Source: Alphaproteobacteria bacterium
GTDB lineage: Bacteria; Pseudomonadota; Alphaproteobacteria; SMXS01
Direction: 5' to 3'
NCBI GenBank assembly: GCA_004356955.1
Contig: SMXS01000044.1
Span: 1 to 36,086, forward strand
Length of the DNA: 36,086 nucleotides
The notes under the pieces are model-generated. The model was not told where the DNA came from. It saw only the letters and a list, made by a program, of their open reading frames with translations, and did not search any database. Positions 4,949 through 27,370 of the stretch are shown in pieces. A program made the position numbers and the translations under genes. Position 1 is the first letter of the stretch, and every line of letters starts with the position of its first letter.

Positions 4949-6082
4949 ATGTCAGATACAGGAAAACAACTGACCTCGACGGTCAAAGCAGACGGCACGC
5001 TCGAACTTTCGCTTGTCGACGTTCCCATCCCCACGCCAGCTGACGACGAAGTCATTATCCGCGTTGAAGCTGCCCCCATCAATCCGTCCGATTTAGGCCT
5101 GGTGTTGGGCATGGCAGATGTTGCCAGCATTGCCCAGGGCGGCACGGCGGATGCCCCGACTGTCACAGCCAATATACCGCCGATGTTCATGCCCATGCAC
5201 GCCCTGCGCCTCGATACGCCTGTCCCTTGTGGCAATGAAGGCGCCGGTGTGGTTTGCGGCGCTGGTTCGTCGGACGCGGCGCAAGCCCTGATGGGCAAGA
5301 CAGTGGCTATCCTTGGTGGTCAGACCTACCAGCAATATCGCGCCATCAAAGCCACCGAATGCCTGGTCCTCAACGAAGGTACCACTCCTGCTGAAGGCGC
5401 AGCATGCTTCGTGAACCCGCTGACTGCCATTGGCATGGTCGAAACCATGCGCATGGAAGACCATACAGCACTAGTACACACCGCAGCGGCCTCGAACCTT
5501 GGTCAGATGTTGGTCAAGATCTGCGTCGAGGAAGACGTGCCGCTGGTCAACATCGTGCGCAAACAGGAACAGATTGATCTGCTGAAAAGCATTGGTGCGA
5601 CCCATGTCGTGAATATGAGCGCTGATAGCTTCAAAGACGATCTGGTTGCAGCCTTGGCTGACACTGGGGCGACCGTTGCCTTTGACGCCACCGGCGGCGG
5701 CACACTGGCCAGTGACATTTTGGCTGGTATGGAAGCGGCGGCAAACCTCAAGGGTGGCGACGGGTCCATCTATGGTTCGATGACCCACAAGCAGTGCTAC
5801 ATCTACGGCGGGCTGGAGCGCTCGACAACCACATTGTCGCGTAACTTTGGCATGGCGTGGGGCTTGGGTGGCTGGCTGCTGACTTATTTTTTGATCAAGA
5901 TTGGGCCGGAAGAAACCCAAAAGCTGAAACAACGGGTTGCAGACAACGTCCATACGACCTTCAAAAGTACCTACACCAAGGAAATATCGCTGGCAGAGGT
6001 GATGATGGCAGACAACGTCAAAGCCTTTGGCAAAATGGCGACGGGTGAGAAGTTCCTGATCAACCCGAACAAGGACCTCTGA
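4949..6082 (+). CDS. MDR-superfamily alcohol dehydrogenase/quinone oxidoreductase-like protein
   Basis: A 377-residue medium-chain dehydrogenase/reductase. The N-terminal GroES-like domain is recognisable by EVIIRVEAAPINPSDLG and the later NEGAGVV segment. The C-terminal half is the NAD(P)-binding Rossmann domain (ALVHTAAASNLGQMLVKIC, then IDLLKSIGATHVVN). The glycine motif is AAASNLG instead of the common GAxGGVG. The structural-zinc cysteine cluster of classical alcohol dehydrogenases is absent, so a zinc-independent quinone-oxidoreductase-type reaction is more likely. The substrate is unknown. ATG 4949 has AGGAAG upstream. It opens a plus-strand run that includes a P450 and is followed by a palindromic repeat. 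Confidence 0.85.
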   Translation: MSDTGKQLTSTVKADGTLELSLVDVPIPTPADDEVIIRVEAAPINPSDLGLVLGMADVASIAQGGTADAPTVTANIPPMFMPMHALRLDTPVPCGNEGAGVVCGAGSSDAAQALMGKTVAILGGQTYQQYRAIKATECLVLNEGTTPAEGAACFVNPLTAIGMVETMRMEDHTALVHTAAASNLGQMLVKICVEEDVPLVNIVRKQEQIDLLKSIGATHVVNMSADSFKDDLVAALADTGATVAFDATGGGTLASDILAGMEAAANLKGGDGSIYGSMTHKQCYIYGGLERSTTTLSRNFGMAWGLGGWLLTYFLIKIGPEETQKLKQRVADNVHTTFKSTYTKEISLAEVMMADNVKAFGKMATGEKFLINPNKDL

Positions 6083-6117: not shown

Positions 6118-6265
6118 CCGTTCGTACCGAGTGATCCTGACCGCAGGGAGGGATTGTATCGAGGTAAGGACACATCAACGTTGTCCTCGCGCTATATTTC
6201 TGTGCTCGTACCTCGATACAATTTGCCCCCCACTGACGTGAGGTCAAATCACTCGGCACGAACGG
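6118..6265. repeat. Dispersed long palindromic repeat, copy A
   Basis: Nested inverted arms: the outer arm CCGTTCGTACCGAGTGAT (6118-6135) pairs with 6248-6265 with one mismatch. The inner arm ATTGTATCGAGGTA (6153-6166) pairs perfectly with 6209-6222. A small central hairpin, AGGACA/TGTCCT, lies at 6167-6187. A second copy lies at 17883-18037. It fills most of the 275-bp gap between the MDR and P450 genes and lies behind the stop of a plus-strand gene. It contains no gene. It is probably a non-coding palindromic repeat family of the genome. Its function is unknown. Confidence 0.85.
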
Positions 6266-17528: not shown

Positions 17529-17861
17529 ATGTCAGAACTCGTCATTGTCACAGACAGCGCAGCAAAGCGTGTTGCATTCTTGGTCAAACAGGAAGGCCTC
17601 GCCAATGGTGCCCTTCGTGTCGCCGTCAATGGCGGTGGCTGTTCGGGCTTTCAATATGGTTTTTCGCTGGATGACACCCGCAATGATGACGACCTTGTCA
17701 TCGAAAAAGAAGGTGCCGTGGTACTGGTCGACACGATGTCCCAGCTATACCTGGCGGGCTCTGAAATCGACTTTGTTGAAGATGTTATCGGTTCCAGCTT
17801 CCAGATCCGCAACCCCAACGCCAAAAGCGAATGCGGTTGCGGGACATCTTTCTCGGTCTAG
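17529..17861 (+). CDS. erpA: Iron-sulfur cluster insertion protein ErpA-like
   Basis: A 110-residue A-type carrier protein (HesB/IscA family) that delivers Fe-S clusters to apoproteins. The three conserved ligand cysteines are present: C38 in NGGGCSGFQYGF, and C102 and C104 in ECGCGTSFSV. Divergence from dgt is typical in alphaproteobacteria and supports the ErpA assignment over IscA. AGGA precedes ATG 17529. No suf or isc operon is in the window. Confidence 0.92.
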   Translation: MSELVIVTDSAAKRVAFLVKQEGLANGALRVAVNGGGCSGFQYGFSLDDTRNDDDLVIEKEGAVVLVDTMSQLYLAGSEIDFVEDVIGSSFQIRNPNAKSECGCGTSFSV

Positions 17862-17882: not shown

Positions 17883-18037
17883 ACCGTTCGTGCCGAGTGA
17901 TTTGGCCACGCATAAGCGGGGACAAATTGTATCGAGGTGCGGGCATCTAACCGATTGTCCGTGATCGACATTGACGCGTTCATACCTCGATACAATCGCC
18001 CCCACCGACGTGGGCTCGATCACTCGGCACGAACGGT
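17883..18037. repeat. Dispersed long palindromic repeat, copy B
   Basis: The same architecture as copy A at 6118-6265: the outer arm ACCGTTCGTGCCGAGTGAT pairs perfectly with ATCACTCGGCACGAACGGT (ending 18037), the inner arm ATTGTATCGAGGT (17926-17938) pairs perfectly with 17984-17996, and the central hairpin is CGGGCA/TGTCCG (17940-17961). The arms are conserved between copies while spacers differ. It occupies most of the 261-base gap between erpA and xthA, with no gene inside. Confidence 0.87.
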
Positions 18038-27024: not shown

Positions 27025-27098
27025 GGCGACGTGGCGGAGTGGTGACGCAGCGGATTGCAAATCCGTGTACGCCGGTTCGATTCCGGCCGTCGCCTCCA
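27025..27098 (+). tRNA. tRNA-Cys (GCA)
   Basis: A complete cloverleaf. The acceptor arm GGCGACG (27025-27031) pairs with CGTCGCC (27088-27094). The anticodon loop is TTGCAAA with anticodon GCA, closed by a five-pair stem with one G-U. The T-loop is GGTTCGATTCC. The discriminator T is followed by an encoded CCA (27096-27098). No intron is present. Confidence 0.97.
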
Positions 27099-27294: not shown

Positions 27295-27370
27295 TCCCCG
27301 ATAGCTCAGTTGGTAGAGCAGGTGACTGTTAATCACCTTGTCGTTGGTTCGAGTCCGACTCGGGGAGCCA
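27295..27370 (+). tRNA. tRNA-Asn (GTT)
   Basis: The acceptor TCCCCGA (27295-27301) pairs with TCGGGGA (27360-27366). The D-arm is TAGCTCAGTTGGTAGAGC. The anticodon loop CTGTTAA gives anticodon GTT (Asn), which in bacteria that modify it carries queuosine. The T-loop is GGTTCGAGTCC. The discriminator is G and CCA is encoded (27368-27370). A strong terminator follows nine bases later. Confidence 0.97.

Follow-up and report, generated by a model that had tools for sequence, protein, structure and literature searches.

The stretch of DNA analysed here (the window, 36,086 nucleotides) is contig C140 of G000, an alphaproteobacterial MAG of 2.19 Mb that is 91% complete in 171 contigs. It contains two nested palindromes, designated copies A and B. 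Copy A is flanked by a zinc-dehydrogenase-like gene and a cytochrome P450 gene and copy B by an IscA/ErpA-type gene and an exonuclease III-type gene, and each follows the stop of a plus-strand gene, at position 6082 for copy A and at 17861 for copy B. As an earlier sequence-only reading had pointed out, the two have common outer arms (CCGTTCGTRCCGAGTGAT / ATCACTCGGCACGAACGG) and common inner arms (ATTGTATCGAGGT / ACCTCGATACAAT) and differ in their spacers; the limits that it gave for copy B (17883-18037) are those used here plus one complementary A/T pair. The features are as follows.

4949-6082, plus strand: zinc-dependent alcohol dehydrogenase-like gene upstream of copy A (Pfam matches slightly below the curated cut-off)
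6118-6265, no strand: copy A, a complete REPIN-like element in which two inverted units enclose a variable centre, with an orthologue in the sister species G001
6118-6168, plus strand: left unit of copy A, with outer stem CGTACC (6123-6128), GAG (6129-6131), distal hairpin, CGA (6160-6162) and inner stem GGTAAG (6163-6168); five of six stem positions paired, six of six in the G001 orthologue
6167-6186, plus strand: central hairpin AGGACA/TGTCCT of copy A, named in the sequence-only reading and unconserved elsewhere
6207-6265, minus strand: right unit of copy A (reverse complement), with outer stem CGTGCC (6255-6260) and inner stem GGTACG (6207-6212), six of six paired
17529-17861, plus strand: Fe-S cluster assembly gene (IscA/ErpA-type, PF01521) upstream of copy B
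17884-18036, no strand: copy B, a full REPIN-like element, with an orthologue in G001
17884-17941, plus strand: left unit of copy B, with CGTGCC (17889-17894), GAG (17895-17897), CGA (17933-17935) and GGTGCG (17936-17941), six of six paired
17981-18036, minus strand: right unit of copy B, with outer stem CGTGCC (18026-18031) and inner stem GGTATG (17981-17986), six of six paired, wobbles included

The elements form very stable long hairpins (-75 and -84 kcal/mol) and have T-rich outward flanks. An Rfam search of the window matched tRNAs alone, and two plus-strand tRNA genes lie at 27025-27095 and 27295-27367.

Copy A matches about 40 places in G000 (blastn, 92 two-strand matches, best non-self E 1e-22), and not just the two in the window, which bears out the suspicion of a structured, dispersed palindrome family. 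Of the copies retrieved from this genome 31 are full elements, about 103-163 bp long with the ends CCGTTCG..CGAACGG, and about ten are partial or rearranged; some of the latter consist of two units back to back (reverse-complement unit, spacer, unit). Convergent genes flank 22 of the 31 full copies, a count that overlooked a short gene before copy B, whose position is tandem, and most others follow a gene. About 20 copies are present in G001 and a few in G002, a MAG of another genus (IP29b_bin.24, JANQQJ01), and the window's repeat was found in none of 57 other genomes searched. Since the G001 sites orthologous to copies A and B are both occupied by the element, these two are old insertions, from which nothing can be learned about mobility; site B of G002 carries another gene. 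No clean empty site was found, the orthologous intergenic DNA in genus g3 being too diverged to define a junction, and at one further site in this genus the element is absent in G005 but the spacers are unalignable. The 31 full copies likewise show no excess of the flanking direct repeats that a target site duplication would leave, and hence neither kind of trace has caught an insertion event.

Each half of an element is a hairpin of the form 5'-a-GAG-(variable hairpin)-CGA-a'-3', in which the stem a/a' covaries and a GA/GA mismatch is conserved, and two such halves in inverted orientation make up the REPIN-like element. Across units CGTGCC pairs with GGTGCG, GGTACG or GGTATG, and other stem pairs are CGTCTC/GAGGCG, CGTATC/GATGCG, CGTATT/GATGCG, CGTGCT/AGTATG, CGTCCC/GGGATG and CGCTTC/GAAGCC. 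For 84 distinct units from G000, G001 and G002, mean stem pairing is 5.62 of 6, compared with 4.94 +/- 0.05 when partners are shuffled, a value that none of 2000 shuffles reached. In five elements whose halves are unlike (L038, L048, L059, L062 and L063) the pairing within each half is kept while outer-to-outer pairing falls, and therefore selection keeps the unit and not the nested palindrome. The hairpin between GAG and CGA is free in sequence and kept in pairing, its longest perfect stem being 5.0 versus 3.1 for shuffled sequences in the window's family (55 inserts) and 5.2 versus 3.4 in another flavour (48 inserts). GA opposite GA forms a tandem G.A mismatch, a motif that is stable in hairpins, and the left unit of copy B alone folds exactly into this arrangement of stem, GA/GA and distal hairpin.

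Compensatory changes had previously been proposed at a different place, the small central hairpin that reads AGGACA/TGTCCT in copy A and CGGGCA/TGTCCG in copy B. The letters are present, but the hairpin is not conserved: the best central stem of 23 scorable copies averages 2.7, compared with 3.5 for shuffled centres, its differences among copies are not compensatory, and it is missing from the G001 orthologue of copy A. Covariation of the central hairpin is peculiar to copies A and B and was rejected as a coincidence of these two. The proposal was right in kind, in that compensatory changes do indicate selection on a folded single strand, and wrong in place, since the true sites of covariation are the six nucleotides before GAG and the six after CGA in each half, together with the distal mini-hairpin.

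A RAYT-type transposase, which the sequence-only reading had suggested looking for, is absent from G000 (no PF01797, the one transposase family searched for), and the enzyme associated with the repeats is a GIY-YIG nuclease. Three small GIY-YIG genes, in addition to uvrC, are found in G000, and one of them, a gene of 95 aa of the YhbQ/UPF0213 type (L076:1435-1722), is abutted by a full element (L076:1300-1433), which lies adjacent to the gene and does not enclose it. A unit also lies at the matching place beside the G002 homologue (L061:1557-1847), and palindromes are present at the ends of all seven of the closest homologues in the family, each with its own sequence flavour, including CGTTCGCCCTGAG..TCGAAGGG and CACCGTGTCCCTGAGC..GTCGAAGGGCC. 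The protein matches Pfam GIY-YIG (PF01541, 64 bits, over the cut-off), and the catalytic residues Y6, Y16, G18, R26, H30 and E63 are invariant in an alignment of eight members. Its fold is already fixed by the solved UPF0213 homologues 1zg2 and 1ywl (profile match E 6e-22 and 3e-20). To our knowledge there is no biochemistry on the clade to which this nuclease belongs, designated clade a.

Named genomes were then scanned by protein alone, and the 80 loci so chosen come from Sphingomonas, Microvirga, Burkholderiales, Gallionella, Methylobacter, Nitrospira, Chloroflexi, Planctomycetota, Candidatus Binatia and others. At 74 of them a GAG..TCGA unit lies no more than 250 bp from the nuclease gene. 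Over that distance units have a density of 4.8/kb, which drops to 0.6-0.8/kb beyond 500 bp, and the proportion of bases in inverted repeats falls from 12.5% near the gene to about 1-2%. In a scan free of any motif, for 6-bp hairpins with a 2x2 mismatch, the most frequent class close to the gene was GAG..CGA, seen 35 times in 53 kb compared with 11 times in 442 kb further out, on 16 different stems. In the full set of protein-chosen clade-a loci, 99 of 112 have units within about 400 bp, which usually enclose the gene, and by the nearest unit on either side, 53 loci have the gene between a forward and a reverse unit, as in the element itself, and six have the opposite arrangement. One locus of G002 (L088) consists of a unit CGGGTC/GACCC, the nuclease gene and a reverse unit CGCTTC/GAAGC, and another (L063) is a 106-bp element with both of these unlike ends from which the nuclease gene is missing, which is how an autonomous element and a derivative of it by internal deletion would look. 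Four nuclease paralogues in G002 (L080, L088, L095 and L100) each have a different repeat stem flavour, as though the genome housed several autonomous lineages side by side. At three loci from Microvirga, Sphingomonas and Sphingobium (L109, L110 and L114) the nuclease frame continues for hundreds of codons beyond the GIY-YIG domain, perhaps as a fusion or by read-through into the next frame.

The repeats and the nuclease also occur together across genomes. In genus g3, G005, G006 and G007 encode the nuclease (E 1e-29 or better) and have 30, 24 and 68 two-strand matches, respectively, to the nuclease-flanking repeat, and G003, G004 and G008 have neither; G009, which is 78% complete, has repeats and no clade-a nuclease was found in it. 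A true exception is G001, 96% complete, which has about 20 copies and no detected clade-a nuclease; its repeats may be relics, or the gene may have been lost from the assembly. A class-wide survey of 289 alphaproteobacterial genomes at least 90% complete found the nuclease in 26 (cut-off E <= 3e-27). At least five copies of the flavour CTGAGCNNGTCGAAGG are present in 14 of these 26 and in six of the 263 nuclease-negative genomes, and when ATCCTGAGG..TCGAAGGAT is added the two flavours are present in 19 of 26 versus eight of 263, an odds ratio of about 87 for which Fisher p-values are optimistic, as the genomes are related by descent. Only these two common flavours were counted, and in 11 nuclease-positive genomes with the first flavour scarce or absent, inspection revealed palindromes of another flavour at the gene. 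The association of the repeats with the GIY-YIG nuclease is itself a very firm result.

A second GIY-YIG clade has a similar relationship to a different class of repeat. It is represented in G000 by a gene on contig C18 (L077:1451-1840), which with 22 relatives makes up the 23 loci tested (other loci of this clade lie in the range L084-L108), and the flanking repeats are of the GTCATTCCTGCGAAGGCAGGAATCCA type. By a hairpin test, CGTC/TGTC-tagged palindromes are present at 18 of the 23 second-clade loci versus six of 112 first-clade loci, and they enclose the gene in 16 cases versus one reversed, while the GAG..CGA unit is present at 99 of 112 first-clade and six of 23 second-clade loci. CGTC REPs were reported in 2013 as lacking any dedicated transposase (Di Nocera 2013, PMC3733652).

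These patterns suggest, with a probability of roughly 0.7, that copies A and B are mobile repeats of a non-autonomous kind, moved by a GIY-YIG nuclease that recognises the hairpin. They have the covarying a-GAG-distal hairpin-CGA-a' unit, and in G000 such a unit is adjacent to a clade-a gene, the two properties by which the proposed GIY-YIG-associated REPIN-like superfamily is defined; they probably belong to this widespread superfamily, whose partner would be the small single-domain nuclease of the YhbQ/YazA/UPF0213 type. The autonomous form would be the nuclease gene between two units. In single-stranded DNA each unit would fold, and the nuclease would recognise the paired stem, tandem G.A mismatch included, and nick the hairpin at its foot. 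Once released or copied, the element would enter new intergenic sites, mostly at convergent gene ends, without target duplication. We infer that the nuclease both binds and cuts the unit and thereby causes copying. Terminator activity of the elements is a likely reason that copies are tolerated at convergent gene ends. In a wider sense, and with somewhat less confidence, small GIY-YIG nucleases may well mobilise REP/REPIN-type elements too, as a second class of enzyme that had gone unrecognised, the GAG..CGA clade and its sister clade of the CGTC REPs each acting through a structured single strand.

It is conceivable that the elements are kept simply as bidirectional transcription terminators or as mRNA 3'-end structures, such that copy number reflects this selection and the nuclease association is incidental. 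The convergent or downstream positions of most copies, the stability of the hairpins and the T-rich flanks all fit this explanation, but it accounts neither for the enclosure of a single nuclease clade in fixed orientation nor for stem flavours that are specific to genomes and the unlike ends common to L088 and L063. We therefore regard it as unlikely as a full account, and a terminator role is compatible with mobility, as a reason for both retention and insertion bias. That the nuclease is instead a host enzyme which recognises these hairpins and removes or processes them, and is tolerated beside the repeats since it controls them, would agree with the grouping of YhbQ/YazA with the structure-selective nuclease Slx1 (PMC7017083). 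This is improbable, as repeats are more numerous, not fewer, in nuclease-positive genomes and the gene is located inside the element, as a cargo or a mobiliser would be.

Two more familiar kinds of element must also be considered. Terminal inverted repeats and short length would be expected of MITEs of an insertion sequence with a DDE transposase, on whose ends the GIY-YIG gene hitchhikes. This is about as improbable as the host-enzyme reading, if marginally more so, given the lack of target duplication in the 31 copies and the enclosure of a GIY-YIG gene alone in very diverse phyla, and stems that covary around a conserved GA/GA mismatch are unexpected for ends acted on by a double-strand transposase. 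The inverted hairpin doublet with a variable centre is the layout of REPINs (PMC3116915), which could have lost their RAYT mobiliser, an HUH transposase, or have it in an unassembled part of the genome. The absence of PF01797 from G000 and of the GTAG tag from the units, together with a GIY-YIG gene being the enclosed gene in 112 loci, makes this very improbable.

Mobilisation by the GIY-YIG nuclease would nevertheless give a system much like that of REPINs and RAYTs (TnpA-REP, REPtrons), with dispersed intergenic inverted hairpin doublets, a variable centre and an enzyme gene flanked by its own hairpins. The differences are that the enzyme here is a GIY-YIG nuclease and not an HUH tyrosine transposase, that the distal hairpin of the units is long and their stem contains a tandem G.A mismatch, and that there is no GTAG (or GGAG) at the hairpin foot, the conserved motif being GAG..CGA inside the stem. 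It works like a REPIN/RAYT system and is not one, as both the tag and the enzyme differ. The CGTC-tagged REPs, which include dRS3 of Neisseria and RPE-6/RPE-4 of Rickettsia, are palindromes that are abundant in Alphaproteobacteria and usually arranged as head-to-head pairs (PMC3733652), and those found here flank the sister GIY-YIG clade in a like orientation. The window's elements do not have their hallmark (an unpaired CGTC/TGTC tag, a stem of 8-9 bp and a CCA-like tail) and are built from a different hairpin associated with a different GIY-YIG clade. The nuclease resembles UPF0213/YhbQ/YazA proteins in its single GIY-YIG domain and invariant catalytic residues, and the solved members of that family, 1zg2 and 1ywl, are annotated merely as hypothetical. 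It also resembles free-standing GIY-YIG homing endonucleases as a selfish nuclease gene that favours its own spread, but because the copies are at unrelated sites this is not homing into a cognate allele, and small non-autonomous derivatives dominate.

Palindromic repeats are among the commonest repeats of bacterial genomes, and a mobiliser (RAYT) is known for the GTAG class only; for two large classes of repeat the results now name a specific candidate enzyme. The divergence of stems between genomes would be explained if pairing and the GA/GA motif alone are kept. YhbQ/UPF0213-type proteins would also gain a role, the searched literature offering just the kinship with Slx1; in that literature (bioRxiv and most subscription journals lay outside it) we found no report linking GIY-YIG/UPF0213/YhbQ nucleases to either repeat class. 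There is a real chance that this is a new kind of mobile element; if so, it would be a minimal one (hairpin, nuclease gene, hairpin), and the palindromic repeats most abundant in many phyla would be its passengers. A nuclease as the probable spreader could settle by what means a large class of repeats moves in bacteria.

Several observations concern the CGTC-type palindromes in genus g3. A 147-bp CGTC-type doublet (CGTCATTCCCGCGCACGCGGGAACC.. and its reverse) is found in G007 on contig C1 (L219:6458-6604), and dispersed matches to it are present in all six relatives of this genus that were searched (G003-G006, G008 and G009). The genomes with matches also encode the second GIY-YIG clade. At about position 1586 of L219 (G007 C1:112585), a GAG..CGA element is nested inside the centre of a CGTC-type palindrome, and the palindrome is present in G009 without the element.
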